Positions 54,738 to 64,000 of a stretch of DNA of 64,000 nt are shown here, one piece after another (position 1 is the first letter of the stretch; the number at the start of each line of letters is the position of its first letter). Origin of the DNA: Acetomicrobium hydrogeniformans ATCC BAA-1850 (GTDB lineage: Bacteria; Synergistota; Synergistia; Synergistales; Acetomicrobiaceae); NCBI RefSeq assembly GCF_000160455.2, contig NZ_ACJX03000001.1, positions 1,932,001-1,996,000 on the forward strand, written 5' to 3'. Below the pieces are notes generated by a model that saw only the letters and a program-made list of their open reading frames with translations, was not told where the DNA came from and made no database searches. The position numbers and the translations under genes were made by a program.

Positions 54738-55211
54738 CTAGAGCTCATATTTGCTGTGCTCTTTTCTCATTTCGGCAACAGCATCGATCAGGCCTTGGAC
54801 GTCCAAGACCATTTCCATCATGCCGAGCTGCTCTTCCCAAAGTGTTGGGTCTACCTTTTCTTTGAATAGGGGATCGAAAATGTGATACACGGCGAGCCCC
54901 AACGGGGCTCCGGCTAATGGCCCTGCAAATGTGGGATCACCAGCAGTTACGGTCTCCGCGTAAATCGACGCACCTTCCGCGTCGGAACTTCCAAGTACGA
55001 CCACCACATTTTCCGGTCCGTACTTTTCAGCTATGTCCTTTACGCGCTGCTGGTTTTGCAGGTCCATCGCCCCTGCCGCAGTTCAGACGAAGCACTCCGT
55101 CACGGCAAAGGCGATATCACAACCGAGGGGTTTTAAAACTTCTTCCATAACCGGGGCGGGTATTCCGTCCCTTTCTCCGAGCAGGATGAATTTTTTGCCC
55201 TCAAAAGCCAT
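54738..55211 (-). CDS. grdA: glycine reductase complex selenoprotein A (GrdA)
   Basis: A 157-residue selenoprotein read through UGA at 55085-55083. The context codes for Glu-Cys-Phe-Val-Sec-Thr-Ala-Ala-Gly, the CxxU motif of GrdA with Cys40 and Sec43. Length and the N terminus (MAFEGKKFILLGERDG) match GrdA. A stem GCAGG/CCTGC begins about 6 bases after the UGA and is the probable SECIS. GrdA accepts the carboxymethyl group from component B as a Se-ether and hands it to component C to make acetyl phosphate. GGAAGGAGGG precedes the ATG. Component C (grdC/grdD) and thioredoxin genes are not in the window. Confidence 0.96.
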
Positions 55212-55360: not shown

Positions 55361-55381
55361 GACTAGCGCCTATTGCTAGTC
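55361..55381 (-). terminator. weak terminator after the response-regulator gene
   Basis: GACTAGC/GCTAGTC 7-bp stem includes the response-regulator stop codon; a TTTTTT run follows only after about 9 bases. It probably separates the two-component genes from grdA in part. Confidence 0.45.
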
Positions 55382-56044
55382 GTCATCGTCCAGACCTACC
55401 AAGCCTTCCCTAATGGCGTAGCGGGTAAGATCCGCAATATTAGCGCAATTCAGCTTTTCCATGATATTTTTCCTGTGCGTGTCGACGGTACTTTTGCTGA
55501 TCGAAAGTTTGGAGGCAATGGATTTGGTATGTTCTCCCTTGACCAAAAGTCTTAAAACCTCCATTTCTCTGGGAGATAGTTTATTTTCAGCGGCAAGCAC
55601 GTCTCCTCTTTTTAATAGCAAATAATCTTCCAAGACGATCTTTGCGGCTTTAGGCGTTAGGTATACGAGGTCCTGTGAAACTGCTTTTATGCCTTGGACA
55701 AATTCATCTATGCTGCAATCCTTTAAAATATAACCGCGAGCACCGGCTTCCAGAATTTGTGAAATCATCCCTCTGTCCAGGTGCATTGAAAGGGCTATTA
55801 TCTTTACGTTCGGATGTCTTTGCGTCAGCATCTTTGTTGCATCGATCCCGTTCATATCTGGCATGGTAATGTCCATGACCACTATATCGGGGTTATAACG
55901 AGGGACCAGTTTCAATGCCTCACGTCCACTGGAAGCCTTGCCCACGACGGAAATAGCCTCTTCCTTCGATAAAAGCTCGCTTAATCCATCTAAAAAGATC
56001 TTATGATCGTCCACCAAAAGGACCTTTATCTCATCGGACGCCAT
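55376..56044 (-). CDS. NarL/FixJ-type response regulator
   Basis: A 222-residue protein with an N-terminal receiver domain: VDDHK (acidic pocket, about residues 11-15), phospho-Asp in VVMDITMPDMNG (about 55-66) and Lys in LKDCSIDE (about 105). A C-terminal LuxR-type helix-turn-helix follows (LSPREMEVLRLLVKGEHTKSIASKLSISKSTV, about 158-189). The ATG lies inside the end of the kinase gene (14-base overlap). It is directly upstream of grdA on the same strand, so control of the betaine reductase/transport operon is a natural guess. Confidence 0.92.
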   Translation of the reverse strand: MASDEIKVLLVDDHKIFLDGLSELLSKEEAISVVGKASSGREALKLVPRYNPDIVVMDITMPDMNGIDATKMLTQRHPNVKIIALSMHLDRGMISQILEAGARGYILKDCSIDEFVQGIKAVSQDLVYLTPKAAKIVLEDYLLLKRGDVLAAENKLSPREMEVLRLLVKGEHTKSIASKLSISKSTVDTHRKNIMEKLNCANIADLTRYAIREGLVGLDDDD

Positions 56045-57158
56045 GTTCCAACCTCCTTGGGGCTGTCAAAGATACCGTAGTCCCCTTTCCCGGCTCTGAT
56101 ATGATTTGAATCGAACCGCCTATAGAATGAAGCCTCTCCTTTATGCTGAAAAGCCCGAATCCGGAGGCTGTCGGTTGTGAGCGCCTCTTTTTGATTATGA
56201 AACCCCTTCCGTCGTCTTCGACTACCACGCGAACCTTATTCTTGCCGTGATGCAGGCGAATAAAGACGCGAGAGGCTTTTGCGTGTTTAACAACGTTTAT
56301 CAACAGTTCTCTTGTCATTTGGTAGAGCAACACAGAGATATCCGTATCGATCTTTTCAGAAGCGTCTCCTTTTTCCTGAAAATCTACATCTATGCCGTGA
56401 GGTTTGAGAATTTGTTCAGCCACTGATTCTAGCGCTGCTCCGAGGCCAACATCGTACAGCAGAGGCGAACTTATCTCAAAAGTGAGGGTTCTGGTATCCT
56501 GTATCACATTATCCAGCATCTTCATGATTTCTTCCAACTCATTTTTGGCGTTATGGTCTTGGGCTATTCCGTGGAGGCGTTGCAATCGGTGCATTATCAT
56601 GGCCAGAGAATAGCCCACTCTATCGTGAATTTTTGTGGCTATACTGTGTCTCGTTTCCTCTTCCGTCAGAGAAATCTTTGCTATTAGTTTCCTAAGTTCC
56701 TCGCGGTAACTTAGAAGCTGGGACTCGCTTTTTCGAAGTGCCTCTTCGGTTCTTTTCCAATTTGTCATGTCGAGAAAGACTACAGCTACCTGACCTTTTG
56801 CGGGGCTGAATCCGAGGCCGTAGAGATATTTGCCCGTGTCGCGACTTTCTCCTTCGTGATGTTTAGACCGTCCGCTGCGGGCCACATCGATAACAAGCTG
56901 GTGCCATTCCTTTTCCGCATAGGGCCAGACTTCCGCAAAAGTATGGCCCACGACCTGCTTTCTCTTGACCCCCATTACTCTTTCGTAGGCGGGATTGACG
57001 TCCAGAAAAACCACTTCCGTTGGATTGCCATTATCATCATATATAACCCTATAGAGCGCGATAGGGTCAAATATCCTGTAAAAAAGCTTACGGTTTATGG
57101 CTGCGACCTTGTCATCCAAGTCATTTTTTGAGAAATACTTATGAGGTATCTCCTTCAT
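56031..57158 (-). CDS. cytoplasmic PAS-domain histidine kinase (NarL-partner type)
   Basis: A 375-residue sensor kinase with no membrane segment. A PAS domain spans about residues 20-140, then a coiled linker, a HisKA_3 dimerisation domain with the phospho-His in TRHSIATKIHDRVG (about 193-206) and an HATPase_c domain (ELLINVVKHAKASRVFI N-box about 295-311; DDGRGFIIKKR about 323-333). The PAS domain suggests sensing of a soluble ligand or redox cofactor. I place the start at ATG 57158, because a TATAAT box lies at 57199-57194 just before an in-frame ATG at 57191; GTG 57167 is another option. Confidence 0.88.
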   Translation of the reverse strand: MKEIPHKYFSKNDLDDKVAAINRKLFYRIFDPIALYRVIYDDNGNPTEVVFLDVNPAYERVMGVKRKQVVGHTFAEVWPYAEKEWHQLVIDVARSGRSKHHEGESRDTGKYLYGLGFSPAKGQVAVVFLDMTNWKRTEEALRKSESQLLSYREELRKLIAKISLTEEETRHSIATKIHDRVGYSLAMIMHRLQRLHGIAQDHNAKNELEEIMKMLDNVIQDTRTLTFEISSPLLYDVGLGAALESVAEQILKPHGIDVDFQEKGDASEKIDTDISVLLYQMTRELLINVVKHAKASRVFIRLHHGKNKVRVVVEDDGRGFIIKKRRSQPTASGFGLFSIKERLHSIGGSIQIISEPGKGTTVSLTAPRRLEHGVR

Positions 57159-57193
57159 TTGTGTCACTGCCTTCGCGAATGTGCTTAACATAT

Positions 57194-57216: not shown

Positions 57217-58497
57217 TCAGTCTTCCCAGTCCATCTTTGGGCTTTGATGTCGAAAGGAGGAAAGGCTTACTTTTTTTACGATGATATTGCGAGGAACGCC
57301 GGGGACTTGCCTTAGAACCTCAGCTGCTTTGTCAACGTACTCCTGTTTGCCTTCCGCCACGGCTATGGTGAAAGATAACTTTTCGGTAATGTCTCCTGTA
57401 TTCTGCAAGGATACTTTAAAGTCTTCAATCCAGGGCAATCTCCAAAGGGCATCTTCCACGTCATAAAGACGAAGTGGGACGCCACCTGCGCCTTTTCTGG
57501 GTAGGCGACCGAGGATTTCTATGCGTTTTAAGGGCGAACCGCAAGGACAAACGTCCTGAAGGATGCGGCCTTCGTCGCCCGTTCGGTAGCGGATCAATGG
57601 AAAAGACATTCGACCAAGTGTGGTGACGACTATTTCTCCCCACTTGCCGTCGGGAAGGACTTGTCCGTTTTCATCTACGATTTCAACGTAGACATCAAGT
57701 TCTCTGACGTGACAACCTTGTCTTGCGCGACACTCCACTGCACAGCCCCAGCCTGTTTCGGTGAGGCCGTAATGGTTGAAGGTCGTACATTCCCATAGTT
57801 TTTCTATTCGATGCCTTATCGAAAAAGGCGCCATGTCAGCGCTAAGCAGGACAAAATCGGGCTTATGAGTGGTCTTTCCCGCAATCCTTGCAATCTGCGC
57901 AGAAAGACCGACTACGATATTGGGGTGGTGATCGTTTATGGCCCAAATTGCTTCGGTCGGGTTGCGGATAAGCCCAAATACAAGCGTTTCACATCCGAGG
58001 CGTTTTAAAGCACGCTTAAGTATTTGCCCTATGCTGTCGGGGAAAGACCCTTCCATAAATACGATGACTTTGCTTCCCGAAGGTGTAAATGTCGACATTC
58101 CGTACATGAAGAAATCTTCGGTCGCCTTTAGATCTTCTTCGGTAAAAAAGATCCTCTTGGAAGGAGCCGACGTTCCAGAGGTGTTTAAAGTAACGATGCG
58201 ACGTACCTTTGACTGAGACACTGTCAAAAAGCGCAACGCCGATTCAGCGAGATCCTGAGGGAAGGTGAAGGGAAGTTGGTTGAAAGGAACGCCCTTTACA
58301 AAGCCAAGGCGATCACGGTAAAAAGGGGAGTGCAAAAAAGCATGCTCGACTGTACGGGATAAAAGGTGCTCTTGTGCCCTTTCTATTTCGCTGCGGTCTT
58401 TGATCCTGATGGACTTTTCCCCGGCCTCACGCCAGGGAAACTCCTTGGCAAGGCGGCTGGCAATCCATGGGTCCAGAGGGGTCAGCGGGATTTTCAT
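57217..58497 (-). CDS. AMP-dependent CoA ligase-like protein (phenylacetate-CoA ligase/F390 synthetase type)
   Basis: A 426-residue adenylate-forming enzyme of the PaaK/coenzyme-F390-synthetase branch. Visible are LNTSGTSAPSKRIFFTEED (P-loop, about residues 104-122), FNHYGLTETGWGCAVEC (about 222-238) and LIRYRTGDEGRILQDVCPCGSPL (about 296-318). The ATG at 58497 overlaps the upstream radical SAM stop as ATGA. As I recall, similar ligases sit in aldehyde-oxidoreductase gene neighbourhoods like DVU_1553 of Desulfovibrio. The substrate is unknown. It may activate the carboxylate produced or handled by the oxidoreductase, or take part in its maturation. Confidence 0.85.
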   Translation of the reverse strand: MKIPLTPLDPWIASRLAKEFPWREAGEKSIRIKDRSEIERAQEHLLSRTVEHAFLHSPFYRDRLGFVKGVPFNQLPFTFPQDLAESALRFLTVSQSKVRRIVTLNTSGTSAPSKRIFFTEEDLKATEDFFMYGMSTFTPSGSKVIVFMEGSFPDSIGQILKRALKRLGCETLVFGLIRNPTEAIWAINDHHPNIVVGLSAQIARIAGKTTHKPDFVLLSADMAPFSIRHRIEKLWECTTFNHYGLTETGWGCAVECRARQGCHVRELDVYVEIVDENGQVLPDGKWGEIVVTTLGRMSFPLIRYRTGDEGRILQDVCPCGSPLKRIEILGRLPRKGAGGVPLRLYDVEDALWRLPWIEDFKVSLQNTGDITEKLSFTIAVAEGKQEYVDKAAEVLRQVPGVPRNIIVKKVSLSSFRHQSPKMDWED

Positions 58498-59813
58498 CGG
58501 CGACGATACAGGGGCTTGCCGCCCCTGGCGGTCAGGTTCCAGGCACAAAAAGGTACAAGTCTTCCATCAAGTGCTGCCACGTGAATGCAGCAGAAGCGCA
58601 AACGTTCTAAGTCGAGGTTTTCCGCATCTTGAAAGGCCATAGCGCTTACGCTAAAGCTCCCTCTTTCGTAAAGGCCGATAAACCTTTCAAAGGCATCTCC
58701 ACTTTGTAGGTCACAAGTCTTTGGGGCGATGTCGGCTCCCCAGCGGCGTCGGATGCTTCCGACAGAGCTTTTAAATCCCTCATCTAAGGACCGACCGTTA
58801 CAACAACATGGCTCACTTGTCAGGGGAATGATTTTGTCAGGGGATTCAACCAGATAGACTGCCCGAAAGGAACATCGTTCATGCTCACATCGAGATGGGC
58901 GAAAATGAGATAAATCGATCATCCCGTCTGTCTGTGCTACCAGATCTCTCATGATCCTTGGAAGCGTCAGACGTTTATCGTCGCTTGGCGGTTCAGGAAA
59001 ACGGCCAAAATAGCTCATGGGCTGAAAATGGACTCCTCTAACGGCTGGAAAGCAAGAAAGTCCGAAACGGACGATATCTCCCATCTCGTTGTCGTTGATC
59101 CCTTTTGTGAGAGTGGGAACCAAGACGACCCCAAGGCCCGCCTCTTGGCACGCATTTATAGCCCGTACCTTCTCGCTCAAAAGCGGCCTTCCCCGCAAGG
59201 CTCTGTAAGTCGTTTCGCGAAGGCCGTCGAATTGCAGAAACACCCAGTTCAGTCCTGATTTTTTTAATTTTTGCGCGTAACCAGGTTCTTGTGCCAGCCT
59301 AAGGCCATTCGTATTTAGCTGAATTCCTGGAAATTTAAGATTTGAGGCCAAGCGAATAAGGTCAAATAGATCGTCTCTAATCGTCGGTTCGCCGCCCGAA
59401 AATTGAAGGATGGCGTTTGATGCCTTATGGCGTACGTCATGTAACAACTTCGCCAAATCATGAAAGTCAGGCTCAAAGCCCTCTCCTGCGCTTGCAAAAC
59501 ATACCGGACACTTGAGTTGACACTTTTCGGTAACCTCAACCACCACTGTGCAGCTTTTTTGCAGATGATCGGCGCACAGCCCACAGCCGGCAGGGCAAGC
59601 TTCAGGGGGGACGTCCTCAGGTCCCGTAACCGGAAAGCGGCCCGATGTCCAAGCCTCAAGGCTTGGCATTCCTTCCCATACCAGGCAGAAAAACTCTCCA
59701 TGATCCGGGCAATGTTTCCTCAAGAAGACGTCGTTTTCTTTTCCTTCCAGAACTGCCGGGACTTGTTTTAGACAGACAGGGCATACGCTGTACGTGTGTC
59801 GTAAGATCGTCAT
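58494..59813 (-). CDS. radical SAM protein of the aldehyde-oxidoreductase accessory cluster
   Basis: A 439-residue radical SAM enzyme with the cluster motif EKCQLKCPVCFAS (C98, C102, C105) and ILQFSGGEPTIRDDL (about residues 136-150). An extra N-terminal cysteine-rich region (C11, C14, C35, then C73, C77, C80, C88) looks like a zinc or Fe-S domain. A C-terminal cysteine cluster (SEPCCCNG about 330; RFCCIH and PFCAWN near the end) suggests auxiliary clusters. I recall a '(seleno)protein' radical SAM family in such neighbourhoods; the copy here has only cysteines. It shares start/stop overlaps with both neighbours. Confidence 0.85.
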   Translation of the reverse strand: MTILRHTYSVCPVCLKQVPAVLEGKENDVFLRKHCPDHGEFFCLVWEGMPSLEAWTSGRFPVTGPEDVPPEACPAGCGLCADHLQKSCTVVVEVTEKCQLKCPVCFASAGEGFEPDFHDLAKLLHDVRHKASNAILQFSGGEPTIRDDLFDLIRLASNLKFPGIQLNTNGLRLAQEPGYAQKLKKSGLNWVFLQFDGLRETTYRALRGRPLLSEKVRAINACQEAGLGVVLVPTLTKGINDNEMGDIVRFGLSCFPAVRGVHFQPMSYFGRFPEPPSDDKRLTLPRIMRDLVAQTDGMIDLSHFRPSRCEHERCSFRAVYLVESPDKIIPLTSEPCCCNGRSLDEGFKSSVGSIRRRWGADIAPKTCDLQSGDAFERFIGLYERGSFSVSAMAFQDAENLDLERLRFCCIHVAALDGRLVPFCAWNLTARGGKPLYRRR

Positions 59814-60271
59814 TAAAGGGGCCGCCCCTCCCGTATATCAAAACCATGGGTTTCAAGAAGCTCTAAAGCCTTCTCCAACGTTTCCATTATCATTGGAAAA
59901 CATTTTTGAAAGCATTTCTTTGGATCTGTAATTGGCTCGTGGCCCAGAATATCCCCGCAGTTGACGCGCCCGCCCGATCCCCAACTTTCTTGAAACCATT
60001 CGTGGAGGCGGCCGATCATTTCGGGCAACTTGGGGTCTTTTTCTTCAAACGGCGCCCCCTTGCCGGCATAAAACCCAAGAAGACAGCAAGCGCCTGTCAA
60101 TGCCCCGCACGTACAAGCAGGCGAAAATGTCCCTCTGCAAAGGCCGTTCATCGCTGCTGTCAGATCCTTATTTTCCTTCCCTGTAAGCGCCAATCCGGTT
60201 AGTATCATGACCTGTGAACAGCAAAAACCTTCCTGCCCCCATTGCATGACTGCGGTGCTTAGGTCTTTCAT
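59813..60271 (-). CDS. C_GCAxxG_C_C family protein (redox protein)
   Basis: A 152-residue protein of the C-GCAxxG-C-C family. The pattern is seen in GFCCSQ (C17, C18), ACTCGALTGACCLLG (about residues 53-67), VNCGD (about 104) and KKCFQKCF (about 119-126). These cysteines likely bind a metal or Fe-S cluster, or exchange thiols; the molecular function is not known. Its stop overlaps the radical SAM start by one base (TAATG), so the two are coupled. In Desulfovibrio-type clusters (DVU_1555, from memory) the same neighbour order is found. Confidence 0.85.
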   Translation of the reverse strand: MKDLSTAVMQWGQEGFCCSQVMILTGLALTGKENKDLTAAMNGLCRGTFSPACTCGALTGACCLLGFYAGKGAPFEEKDPKLPEMIGRLHEWFQESWGSGGRVNCGDILGHEPITDPKKCFQKCFPMIMETLEKALELLETHGFDIREGRPL

Positions 60272-60297
60272 ATCGATCTCTCCTTTAATCTTCCCGA

Positions 60298-60999
60298 TTA
60301 ACTTGCTGCCCTTTTGGCGTCATCAATCTCATATCGCTCTTTTAATGTACCTTCATTGCCCACCTTTTTGCACAACCACAGGCCGTAACTCAAGCTACAA
60401 CACGTCTTTATAGGTGCTTCAATGACGCCTGCCCACACCAGTTGGGCAGTACATTCCCGGAGCAGTTTGGGATAAGCTTCAAAGAAAAAGACCTCAAATC
60501 CATGGATCCTGAATGCTTCGTTCAATTCAAGTGCTGACCTGGCTCCGCTTGCACATGAACCGTCGAAGGTGTGACTGTCGAAACTGCGATTGAGGGAAAA
60601 GATGTCTGTTATGCCCAAAATTGCCTCTTCCTTTAAGACTCTTGCAAGTTCTGACAAGGCTGGCGAAAGCTCCTTTTGCTGCGAGAGGACGCACTCGCAG
60701 ATCACGCCGTCAAAACTGCCGTCTTCGAAGGGCATGCCACACAAATCTCCGCGTACTGTCGGCCCCTTTTGCATTGCCTTTGAGAGCAACTCATAAGATT
60801 TGTCTAGTCCTACGGCGTCCAAACCCTCTTCAATCAAAAGTCTTAGCGTTGCACCTGCACCACAGCCTGCATCAAGCACCTTGGCCTTTGGGGGAAAGTT
60901 GCACAAGTGTATCAGTCTTCTTGAGAGTGCTTCTCCTCCCGGGTGAAGCGCTTCGCCCATGACCAAATGCCACTTCGGATGTTCGTAGGGCAAAGACAT
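60298..60999 (-). CDS. class I SAM-dependent methyltransferase of the aldehyde-oxidoreductase cluster
   Basis: A 233-residue methyltransferase. The SAM-binding motif is KVLDAGCGAGATLRLL (about residues 39-54), with the acidic post-motif GLDKSYELL (about 63-71) and FEDGSFDGVICECVL (about 92-106). The C-terminal part has extra cysteines (RECTAQL, IKTCCSLSYGLWLCKK) that are unusual for this fold and may bind metal or a thiol-bound substrate. The start overlaps the stop of the small redox gene. It resembles the DVU_1556 family, as I recall. The acceptor is unknown. Confidence 0.82.
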   Translation of the reverse strand: MSLPYEHPKWHLVMGEALHPGGEALSRRLIHLCNFPPKAKVLDAGCGAGATLRLLIEEGLDAVGLDKSYELLSKAMQKGPTVRGDLCGMPFEDGSFDGVICECVLSQQKELSPALSELARVLKEEAILGITDIFSLNRSFDSHTFDGSCASGARSALELNEAFRIHGFEVFFFEAYPKLLRECTAQLVWAGVIEAPIKTCCSLSYGLWLCKKVGNEGTLKERYEIDDAKRAAS

Positions 61000-61214
61000 T
61001 ATTTGTCCTCCAATATCTTTTCAACCTCGAGCATCTTACCCACCGCTAATGACTCCGGCACCAATATGAATCGGCAGCGAGAGCAGGCAGGAAGCTCTAT
61101 CTCGAAGCGGTTACCGAGATAGAGCGCCGCAACCTTGTGCGGCGTAAGTTCGTTGCCACAGCTGCACCTCCAGCCTGTCTGTTCGTGAAAACCGAGATCA
61201 GTTTCCTTGCTCAT
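60999..61214 (-). CDS. small CxC/CxxC ribbon protein (DVU_1557-like redox protein)
   Basis: A 71-residue protein with two cysteine pairs, WRCSCGNE (C17, C19) and ACSRCRF (C44, C47), arranged as a zinc- or iron-ribbon. It overlaps both neighbours by 1-4 bases, so it is translated with them. It likely serves as a small electron carrier or scaffold in the aldehyde-oxidoreductase accessory system; the metal cannot be told from sequence. Confidence 0.8.
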   Translation of the reverse strand: MSKETDLGFHEQTGWRCSCGNELTPHKVAALYLGNRFEIELPACSRCRFILVPESLAVGKMLEVEKILEDK

Positions 61215-63421
61215 GACATCAACTCCATGACCATCCTGTGGCTCCAGGCGTTGATGATCACAAAAGAACGATCATCCTCGCTGAATTCCACCCAAAAAGT
61301 AACGTTTCCTATTCTCGAAGAAGCAAGCTTGGTGCCCTCGGGAGAGATGAGGTGCCTTCCCCCGGAAGAGGCTTCCCACAGAGTTTGCTTTATATCGCTA
61401 TCGATGATATGACGATCTTCAAGTTTTTCGCGAACCGCGTCAGAGACGAATATGGGCAGGGCATCCCATGGCTCTTGAGGTAGGTCGCAAGGCCCAAGCA
61501 GTTTTAGCCTAAGGGACTCCCTGTTCTGCTGTCGTTTGGCGTAACCTAAACGCTTGTTTTCTACAGGAGGGGGAAAGAGGATGTCCAAGAGATGTAAGAC
61601 CGTTTTCCCTGACCCGGAAAGGTTTTCGCGGCACATGGCGCAATAGGTCAGAAAATTATTTTTGCTTTCTTTAAGCCTGCGTAAGACGCCCTCGCGGGCA
61701 AGATCGGGGTCGGCCATAAACTGAAGGCCGCCGTAACCGCAGCAGCGCGTGGTTTCACCAGCAAAGAGGAGCTCTTCGTAAGGTTGTCCCAGGATTTGAA
61801 GTATTTTTCGAACTGACTGCCTCCAATCCGGTTCGTGGCGGGTAGTGCAAGGGTCATGAAGGGCAAGAGTTTCCGCAACAGGTCTTGTTTCAGGTAACCC
61901 CTTTTCAAGTAATGCCTGCCACAATGAGACCCTGGGCACATTAGGTAAAAAATGCTTAAATACATCATTGCAGGATGAACAAGCCAAAATCAGCATCGGG
62001 TTTCCCAAGGATTCGATAGTTTTCTCAATGTTTTTAACGACCTCATCTGCTTTGTCTCGCCTACCTGCCCACCATGCGGGAGCACCGCAGCACCCGAGCA
62101 TTATGCCAACATGGCCGTCGAACGTCTCCTTTAGAAAGTTTGCGACTCTTTCTGTCTGATCCGGCATGGCGCCGCTCAACTGACAACCGGGAAAGAAGAT
62201 GGCCTGCGTCGTCTTTGCTCCGCTTCTAAATCCGGACGACCTTGGAGAGTTGGCGTGTTCCATATCGAGGAGTGCAAACTCATGCACTGATGGCGGCATT
62301 ATGTTTTGTTCCACCATTTGCTCTCGCGCGAAGCGACACAGGTCAGCCATCGAAAAATCGTTGGGGCAAAGGACCTCGCAAAGTCCGCAAAGCGAACAGG
62401 AATTTATCATTTTATTGGCGCTGTGGGTGCCTTGGACTATTGCGAAATTGTTATATATTTGCCTGGCGTATACCTTCGGATAACCCTTATATTTTTCCAA
62501 GAAAGCACATTCGTGCACGCAATATAGGCACTCGCACTTGATACAGCGTTTCGCTTCTTCTATAGGGTCATCTCGGGGAGAAAGGGATCGTACCCCCTCA
62601 AGTGGGGTATAAAGTTTCGTAAGGACTGAGAACTCCTTTTCCCTTCCCGACAGTAGAGATGTTCCCTGCAGGTAACGGTCTATAGTGTTTGCTGCTCTCT
62701 TGCCGTCAGCCGACTCCCAAACAGGCGAAGGTTTATCGCTACGAGGAAAACCGCCGGCAAACAGTCCTTTAATGGAAGTTTCATAGGTTTGGGGGTTTAT
62801 TTCTTTATTGTCTACTCTATCTGACCAATCGGGGTCGTCAATGCCTATATAAACAGCATTTCCCTCTTCAATATCACTTCTTATTGGGTCTTTTTCTTGA
62901 GACCGCGTTATTCCCATTTGAATTAAGGTTTTCCAAGCATTGACAAGAATTTCTTGAGGTAAAACTTCCTCCGGTAAGGATAAAAGTCTTCCGCCGAGAA
63001 TTTCACCGTTAAATACCATTTGTACAGTATAACCCTTTCTTGCAAGCTCAAAGGCGCAGGTTAACGAAGAAAGTCCACTGCCGTAAACGGTGACAGACTT
63101 TACCTTTGAAGGAAGGCGAAGTAGCATTCCCATATCCTTGGAGTTTTCAAGACAAAATCGTTCAAGTCTTCCGATAGCAATAGAACCTCCCTTTTGAGAT
63201 AGGATGCAGGCATCTTCACCGGGATGATCGCAGATTCTGCCAAGAATGTCTGGCAGGGGCATCGACCTTGAAAGTATTTTCCTCGATTCGTCGAATTGTT
63301 CCTGCCCTATAGCTGCGCAAAGGGACCTTACGTCTACTTTAAGAGGACATGCAGCCTGACAATAAGGAAGTTCCTCTTGGATACAGCGTTGTTCGAAATT
63401 GGTTAAGTCAAGGCGTTCCAT
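61211..63421 (-). CDS. FAD/dicluster-binding protein fused to heterodisulfide-reductase-like CCG domains
   Basis: A 736-residue electron-transfer protein. In order: a GltD-like N-terminal cysteine domain (YCQAACPLKVDV about residues 20-31, plus ICDHPGEDAC about 63-72), a compact FAD-binding part (TVYGSGLSSLTCAFELA about 111-127, and GLFAGGFPRS about 223-232), and 4Fe-4S motifs (CIKCECLYCVHEC about 286-298; CSLCGLCEVLCPND about 337-350). Two CCG domains follow (GCCGAPAWW about 448; TTRCCGYGG about 577) of the heterodisulfide reductase type. The NAD(P)-binding half of a normal GltD-like domain seems to be missing. It probably carries electrons for the adjacent aldehyde oxidoreductase. Confidence 0.85.
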   Translation of the reverse strand: MERLDLTNFEQRCIQEELPYCQAACPLKVDVRSLCAAIGQEQFDESRKILSRSMPLPDILGRICDHPGEDACILSQKGGSIAIGRLERFCLENSKDMGMLLRLPSKVKSVTVYGSGLSSLTCAFELARKGYTVQMVFNGEILGGRLLSLPEEVLPQEILVNAWKTLIQMGITRSQEKDPIRSDIEEGNAVYIGIDDPDWSDRVDNKEINPQTYETSIKGLFAGGFPRSDKPSPVWESADGKRAANTIDRYLQGTSLLSGREKEFSVLTKLYTPLEGVRSLSPRDDPIEEAKRCIKCECLYCVHECAFLEKYKGYPKVYARQIYNNFAIVQGTHSANKMINSCSLCGLCEVLCPNDFSMADLCRFAREQMVEQNIMPPSVHEFALLDMEHANSPRSSGFRSGAKTTQAIFFPGCQLSGAMPDQTERVANFLKETFDGHVGIMLGCCGAPAWWAGRRDKADEVVKNIEKTIESLGNPMLILACSSCNDVFKHFLPNVPRVSLWQALLEKGLPETRPVAETLALHDPCTTRHEPDWRQSVRKILQILGQPYEELLFAGETTRCCGYGGLQFMADPDLAREGVLRRLKESKNNFLTYCAMCRENLSGSGKTVLHLLDILFPPPVENKRLGYAKRQQNRESLRLKLLGPCDLPQEPWDALPIFVSDAVREKLEDRHIIDSDIKQTLWEASSGGRHLISPEGTKLASSRIGNVTFWVEFSEDDRSFVIINAWSHRMVMELMS

Positions 63422-63452
63422 AAGCTCTCTTCCTCCTCAAATGCTTGAACAT

Positions 63453-63486
63453 GCTCACCCAAGGTTTGAATAAATCTTGGGTGAGC
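63453..63486 (-). promoter_or_regulatory. intercistronic hairpin after the aldehyde oxidoreductase gene
   Basis: Perfect 11-bp stem GCTCACCCAAG/CTTGGGTGAGC (63453-63463 with 63476-63486) and a 12-base loop in the 83-base gap. There is no T-run after it, so it is more likely an mRNA processing or stability element, or a leaky terminator, than a full stop. Confidence 0.5.
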
Positions 63487-63504
63487 GCTCATTAACACTT
63501 CTTC

Positions 63505-64000
63505 TTAGACATATTCGCCTTTGAGGCCGGCGAGTATCTTTTCGGGTTTGGCAGGCAGACGGTGGACCCTGACTCCGCAGGCGTTGTAAATGGCGTTTCC
63601 TATAGCGGCATGGGGGCTTGTGAGGGGTAATTCTCCTACTCCTGCAGCTCCAAAGGGGCCAAACTCCCGGGGGTAATTTTCGAAGTAGACTATCTCTATG
63701 TCATCTGGGAGATCCTTAGCGTAGGGGAACCCTCCCCCGATGAGGGAAGAATGCCTTTTAATATCCTCAAAGTCCTCCGATAGAGCAAGTCCGATTCCCT
63801 GGGCGATCCCTCCGTAAATCTGGCCATCGGTCACCAGGCGGTTATTGACTTTTCCGATATCAGCCATCAAGGTCATCTTGTCCACGGCAACCTTGCCTGT
63901 TTCGGTATTAACCGAAACCTCGGCAAGAAAGACTCCATACATATAGACGACGAAGGGCCTTCCCTGACCCTTTTCGTCGCAGGGAACGCCTGGAACTGAA
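63505..64000 (-). CDS. molybdenum-dependent aldehyde oxidoreductase, C-terminal part (cut by window edge)
   Basis: The open frame runs from the stop at 63505 to the window edge (164 codons, no start inside), so it is the C terminus of a larger gene. The sequence matches the molybdopterin-binding subunit of the xanthine oxidase family. GAAGVGELPLTSPHAAIGNAI has the active-site Glu of the GVGE motif, and DGQIYGGIAQGIGLALSED is the cofactor-binding loop. In D. gigas-type Mop the Fe-S and Mo parts are one chain; the rest lies right of the window. It is the first gene of the operon continuing to 57217. Confidence 0.88.
   Translation of the reverse strand, partial: SVPGVPCDEKGQGRPFVVYMYGVFLAEVSVNTETGKVAVDKMTLMADIGKVNNRLVTDGQIYGGIAQGIGLALSEDFEDIKRHSSLIGGGFPYAKDLPDDIEIVYFENYPREFGPFGAAGVGELPLTSPHAAIGNAIYNACGVRVHRLPAKPEKILAGLKGEYV

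Follow-up and report, generated by a model that had tools for sequence, protein, structure and literature searches.

For about 40 years, the molybdenum aldehyde oxidoreductase (AOR) of Desulfovibrio gigas has served as a model molybdenum enzyme, although to our knowledge neither its physiological substrate nor its partner has been settled. When isolated from its native cells, it contains a pyranopterin cytidine dinucleotide in which an oxo group replaces the sulfido ligand, and it is active in this form (PMC3877041); flavodoxin is the putative partner named in a historical review (PMC10223205). In the radical S-adenosylmethionine (SAM) enzyme tetraether lipid synthase (Tes), a rubredoxin site (CxxC...CxxH) is accompanied by three clusters, namely one at the N-terminus held by three cysteines and a histidine, the CX3CX2C cluster, and one at the C-terminus that includes a labile methionine, and a substrate carbon is temporarily bonded to a cluster sulfur (PMC9433317). 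Relatives of both enzymes are encoded in one operon of Acetomicrobium hydrogeniformans, on the minus strand from position 64000 down to 57217 of the window, which is the whole stretch of 64,000 nucleotides analyzed here (1932001-1996000 of the 2.12-Mb genome). The seven genes encode a D. gigas-type molybdenum AOR (Mop), a flavo-Fe-S protein (DICL), a zinc-ribbon-like redox protein (RIB), a methyltransferase (MT), a C-GCAxxG-C-C protein (CGC), a Tes-like radical SAM enzyme (TrsS), and a PaaK-like adenylate-forming enzyme (LIG). This gene set is real, widespread, and already catalogued. We see an even chance that the operon joins Mop and its own electron acceptor to a linked substrate-processing unit made up of TrsS, MT, and LIG.

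The operon and its link to the D. gigas enzyme

The window holds the C-terminal 164 codons of Mop (63505..64000, minus strand). The entire gene, encoding 909 aa, runs past the window end and was read from L007, a genomic stretch extending beyond that end, which also holds the upstream riboswitch (Mop at L007:7505-10234, window-equivalent 63505-66234). Mop matches D. gigas AOR (1SIJ/1VLB) over its full length with 1470 bits. It has the molybdenum-binding domain and the two [2Fe-2S] cysteine sets without a flavin adenine dinucleotide (FAD) domain, and shares with the D. gigas and Desulfovibrio desulfuricans enzymes (1SIJ/1VLB, 1DGJ) a single full-length chain with the Fe-S cysteines kept. By analogy with the D. 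gigas enzyme, we infer that Mop uses a molybdopterin cytidine dinucleotide (MCD) cofactor and oxidizes aldehydes.

The first 515 residues of the crystallized D. gigas AOR are 100% identical to a protein encoded in genome G103, in which TrsS lies about 5.5 kb downstream of the AOR gene. The gene order at this D. gigas locus (L112) is MoeA-like, Mop, DICL, RIB, MT, CGC, TrsS, LIG, XdhC, and NTP transferase. The gene of the D. gigas enzyme therefore sits in the same operon type as the window Mop, whereas the published account gives flavodoxin as the putative partner and mentions no operon, the word itself being absent (PMC10223205). The placement of a D. gigas-type AOR gene in a conserved operon makes the natural job of this model enzyme directly testable in genetically tractable Desulfovibrio.

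The description of the locus as a tight minus-strand operon with overlapping starts and stops, made earlier in a sequence-only reading of the window, holds at the level of coordinates: four of the six gene junctions (DICL/RIB, RIB/MT, CGC/TrsS, and TrsS/LIG) overlap by 1-4 nt, and the other two are gaps of 26 nt (MT-CGC) and 83 nt (Mop-DICL). The most likely start of LIG is the ATG at 58497, which gives an ATGA overlap with the TrsS stop and is preferred over the TTG at 58548. A molybdenum cofactor (Moco) riboswitch (RF01055) was identified by covariance model at L007:10554-10672 (minus strand; window-equivalent 66554-66672) with 81.6 bits against a gathering threshold of 36. It is located just past the window end, 320 nt upstream of the Mop start and in the same orientation; another Synergistaceae locus has a Moco riboswitch as well.

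In profile searches, each of the six proteins that are complete in the window scored above the curated cut-off of the NCBIfam family dedicated to it, which confirms the identities assigned to these genes in the sequence-only reading; the numbering DVU_1553-1559 that it gave also agrees with the NCBI family names. Its description as an undescribed system holds only in part, as the families are already curated. The set comprises eight NCBIfam families (NF045645, NF045646, NF045663-NF045667, and NF045669), and their almost unbroken run of accession numbers suggests handling as one set by the curators at NCBI. TrsS is a selenoprotein family attributed to Haft & Tolstoy 2025, as listed in PMC13188914. 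Two of the eight families, NF045664 (XdhC family aldehyde oxidoreductase maturation factor) and NF045665 (DVU_1551 NTP transferase), match flanking genes in relatives. The locus thus resembles the catalogued DVU_1551-1559/TrsS set in all six complete proteins and differs from it in two respects: no XdhC- or NTP-transferase-like gene of this genome exceeds the NF045664 or NF045665 cut-off, sub-threshold relatives being encoded elsewhere in the genome, and the window TrsS carries cysteine in place of selenocysteine (Sec). A literature search on DVU_1553 and DVU_1555-1559 found no reported function. DVU_1559 appears solely as "Aor" in an ethanol model and has been detected in the proteome, and a large fitness study treats the tungsten AOR DVU1179, not the Mop/TrsS operon.

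Distribution across genomes

A scan for TrsS relatives yielded 80 named loci, whose neighborhoods were profile-searched, with later loci added. Mop, DICL, and TrsS occur together in 41 loci, 33 of which hold all seven genes. These 33 loci span Synergistota, Desulfobacterota, Bacillota, Chloroflexota, and Pseudomonadota, and the gene order is mostly kept. The seven families cluster far beyond chance, and the co-occurrence outside this lineage that the sequence-only reading had proposed as its test was thus found in five phyla. Genes similar to XdhC, MocA, and MoeA recur adjacent to the Mop/DICL/TrsS loci.

The association is nearly complete among 149 Desulfovibrionia genomes. The raw survey counted 102 genomes with both Mop and TrsS, three with Mop only, two with TrsS only, and 42 with neither; after the loci were read, these numbers became 104, one, two, and 42. 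Two genomes (G146 and G159) that appeared to have Mop without TrsS were misses of the first-look search, and their loci do carry TrsS, which leaves G088 as the lone case of Mop by itself. In the two TrsS-only genomes, the operon starts at a contig edge (G160) or belongs to a different, tandem-TrsS variant (G211). The TrsS set is present in about 70% of the sampled Desulfovibrionia. Among Synergistales, DICL is found in exactly the ten genomes that have TrsS, including G002, in which TrsS is a fragment cut by the contig end. Many Clostridia have TrsS displaced from the operon, and the same genomes mostly retain Mop, DICL, and LIG elsewhere.

In seven Clostridia loci (L043, L059, L060, L063, L073, L074, and L083), the displaced TrsS is found at the same locus as a CobW-like GTPase gene, which is adjacent to it where examined. 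A corrinoid role was considered from these GTPases and from MtaA-like (L084) and AcsV-like (L064) neighbors, and was set aside as they recur too inconsistently.

Gene fusions and loci without Mop

Several loci carry fusions between members of the set. TrsS and LIG form a single open frame in a Desulfobulbaceae locus (L040), as do MT and LIG in an Oscillospiraceae locus (L080), while DICL and RIB are fused in five Desulfovibrionia loci, and in an archaeal locus (L084) the DICL C-terminal domain and a weak RIB-like (DUF7479) domain form one protein. These fusions are direct evidence that TrsS, LIG, and MT serve one job and that DICL and RIB share another.

The genomes that carry L053, L057, and L084, which are draft assemblies, yielded no Mop. 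They have TrsS and LIG together with a variable selection of RIB, MT, and portions of DICL, and a NuoF-like gene and a partial DICL lie beside the TrsS-LIG module in L057. Conversely, Mop paralogs of 51-55% identity are encoded in Synergistales genomes without TrsS or DICL. Because TrsS-LIG modules occur without Mop and Mop paralogs occur without TrsS, TrsS-LIG is the constant core and Mop the partner of one large clade. A second Mop-type molybdoenzyme with 55% identity was also observed at L009:4184-7093 (plus strand), beside a small cupin-like open reading frame and without trs genes, and many Synergistales have paralogs of this sort.

A variant with tandem TrsS genes was observed at L068:1761-4686, L070:30-4614, and L126:4641-10349. 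The last two also contain LIG and DUF5714, possibly a distant relative of the CGC family, and L126 has an HGD-D gene (2-hydroxyacyl-CoA dehydratase type) upstream of the tandem TrsS.

TrsS as a relative of tetraether lipid synthase

TrsS (58494..59813, minus strand) scores 576 bits against NF045646 (cut-off 490). Among proteins of solved structure, the tetraether lipid synthase GDGT-MAS (7TOL) is its nearest relative (profile E-value 2.7e-114), and a fold search with the predicted TrsS model (mean pLDDT 90.8) matched the same structure with a TM-score of 0.81. Along with the whole fold, TrsS retains the SAM residues of Tes, the rubredoxin-site motif, the ligands of all three clusters (N-terminal, CX3CX2C, and C-terminal), and the position of the labile methionine. 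It differs from Tes in scoring 330 bits against the Tes model NF045702, under the curated cut-off of 450, and in being shorter, lacking the long Tes insertions on either side of the first C-terminal cluster motif. It also has two extra cysteines atypical of archaeal Tes-like proteins, namely C88, which is present in nearly all bacterial TrsS, and C309. In a phylogenetic tree, the Mop-linked TrsS proteins, including the displaced ones, form one set of 68 rows (SH-aLRT 99), and the Mop-less and tandem TrsS proteins fall outside it, nearer to Tes.

Position 309 is a cysteine in 57 rows and a threonine in most archaeal Tes-like proteins, and an in-frame TGA (Sec) was seen there only in L010, L011, and L072, two of which are from Synergistales genomes and one from Acidobacteria. 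Since C309 lies five residues ahead of a conserved C-terminal cysteine, the Sec residue is probably situated near the C-terminal cluster. The window TrsS has cysteine at this variable site; most rows do so, and NF045646 is named "(seleno)protein", so that Sec is optional in the family and the membership of the window protein stands. The organism itself does decode Sec although its own TrsS has cysteine, as the glycine/sarcosine/betaine reductase selenoprotein A encoded elsewhere in the window (54738-55211, minus strand) contains an in-frame UGA (Sec43), which truncates the mechanically called reading frame.

Electron acceptor and accessory proteins

DICL (61211..63421, minus strand) belongs to NF045663 ("diclust_near_Sec"; 904 bits, cut-off 530) and matches the Pfam domains Fer4_20, Fer4_17, and CCG. 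The protein consists of a [4Fe-4S]/FAD part, a [4Fe-4S] dicluster, two CCG (HdrB-like) motifs, and a C-terminal domain of ~90 aa, with the cysteines conserved; the C-terminal domain had no convincing match to anything. Of the GltD-type architecture, DICL retains the Fe-S part at the N-terminus and the FAD halves, and the alignment passes from query residue 172 to 207 while the template passes from 258 to 454, i.e., the NAD(P)-binding segment is absent. A longer relative in L053 matches GltD-type models throughout. We infer that DICL accepts electrons from the [2Fe-2S] centers of Mop. RIB (60999..61214, minus strand) is a zinc-ribbon-like redox protein of 71 aa with a CxC...CxxC pattern, and is assigned to the DVU_1557 family (NF045645, 91 bits, cut-off 60; DUF7479, PF24292).

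MT (60298..60999, minus strand) is a class I SAM methyltransferase of the DVU_1556 family (NF045667, 194 bits, cut-off 155), with conserved Glu-Cys and N-terminal PGG motifs. CGC (59813..60271, minus strand) is a member of the DVU_1555 family (NF045669, 148 bits, cut-off 103), and its four invariant cysteines make Fe-S binding possible. A fold search with CGC gave no match, and a relationship to split-Soret cytochrome c (1H21), considered from a weak sequence match, was not supported by the fold search.

LIG (57217..58497, minus strand) is assigned to the DVU_1553 family (NF045666, 383 bits, cut-off 300) and matches PF00501 with 34 bits (cut-off 29.9). In common with PaaK-type phenylacetate-CoA ligases, it has the core motifs of the ANL N-terminal part as well as conserved Cys and His residues, but its C-terminal domain is weakly conserved and is missing in about ten relatives. 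The terminal lysine motif reads K-M in the window protein versus K-R, near the C-terminus, in most relatives. The view that LIG is generally truncated was dropped, since most relatives retain the C-terminal K-R motif.

Proposed pathway and alternative explanations

The link to D. gigas, the fusions, the riboswitch, and the variants without Mop shift the weight from cofactor maturation toward a dedicated pathway. The sequence-only reading had named three roles for the accessory genes: building a novel cofactor, maturing the active site, or forming a pathway that oxidizes an aldehyde produced in situ. The first two became disfavored, and a pathway around an intracellularly produced aldehyde or acid remains. 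We tentatively propose a so far unrecognized anaerobic pathway in which a Tes-type TrsS forms either a C-C or a C-S bond with an activated small acid as its substrate, a D. gigas-type AOR oxidizes an intermediate, and the electrons bypass NAD(P) and pass to a flavo-Fe-S protein of HdrB-like type. In the substrate-processing reading, to which we give even odds, LIG would activate a small carboxylic acid as an acyl-AMP or thioester, and TrsS would abstract a hydrogen from the activated acid. The substrate radical may then be captured by the C-terminal [4Fe-4S] cluster of TrsS for C-C or C-S chemistry as in Tes, while MT may methylate the same compound or the product of a step. Mop would perform the aldehyde-to-acid (or a hydroxylation) step, and its electrons would flow through its two [2Fe-2S] centers to DICL/RIB, not directly to NAD(P). 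The molybdenum site would be an ordinary MCD made by XdhC/MocA/MoeA-type factors and unmodified by TrsS, MT, and LIG. If this pathway exists, it would represent a new radical chemistry in about 70% of the sampled Desulfovibrionia and in many gut Clostridia.

Several points weigh against a dedicated pathway of this kind. We know of no substrate, activity, or mutant phenotype for the operon. The operon has no dedicated transporter, so the substrate would need to be made in the cell. With its degenerate K-M motif and the loss of the C-terminal domain in relatives, the ligase activity of LIG is uncertain and the name "CoA ligase" provisional. Some full operons have alanine or another residue at the Cys/Sec309 site near the C-terminal cluster, and the co-occurrence counts carry no correction for shared ancestry. 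Moreover, the only direct partner that the historical review reports for D. gigas Mop is flavodoxin rather than DICL (PMC10223205).

An unlikely alternative is that TrsS, MT, LIG, CGC, and RIB build a small redox cofactor or electron carrier for Mop-DICL, which other redox enzymes (HGD-D or NuoF type) use in the versions without Mop. The redox partners beside TrsS-LIG are indeed varied, being mostly Mop and DICL but a NuoF-like protein with partial DICL in L057 and HGD-D with DUF5714 in L126, and a unit that is so frequent in Desulfovibrionia and has no transporter is what would be expected of a cofactor pathway. However, RIB is the sole candidate for a precursor peptide or carrier protein, and the D. 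gigas enzyme, purified in the ordinary way, is functional with flavodoxin in vitro without any carrier being added (PMC10223205, PMC3877041).

It is improbable that TrsS acts on lipid tails like Tes, which joins two lipid chains at their terminal carbons, with LIG activating fatty acids and Mop oxidizing fatty or ether-lipid-derived aldehydes. Tes is the nearest relative of TrsS by both sequence and fold, and bacterial Tes homologs have been proposed as makers of membrane-spanning lipids (PMC8941075). Nevertheless, TrsS falls well under the Tes cut-off and is without the long Tes insertions, and lipid genes do not recur in the examined neighborhoods. LIG, moreover, is PaaK-like, and this family is known for aromatic acids.

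Modification of the molybdenum cofactor, or maturation of the Mop active site, by TrsS, MT, and LIG is more doubtful still. The near-perfect co-occurrence of TrsS and Mop would agree with such a role, as would the Moco riboswitch and the XdhC, MocA-like, and MoeA-like genes in many operons. Yet crystals of natively purified D. gigas Mop contain pyranopterin cytidine dinucleotide with no extra modification reported (PMC3877041), and since this protein comes from a cell with the full accessory set, its ordinary cofactor is a strong argument against a novel molybdenum cofactor. Both roles are likewise disfavored by the TrsS-LIG modules in genomes where Mop was not found and by the 51-55% identical Mop paralogs without TrsS. 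That the neighbors are merely held together by horizontal transfer without a shared function, as the patchy occurrence of the set across phyla might suggest, is very improbable in view of the fusions, the fixed order, and the retention of displaced TrsS elsewhere in the genome.

Genes downstream of the operon

A pair consisting of a PAS-domain sensor kinase and a response regulator (55376-57191, minus strand) follows LIG at a distance of 25 nt and could share a transcript with the operon.

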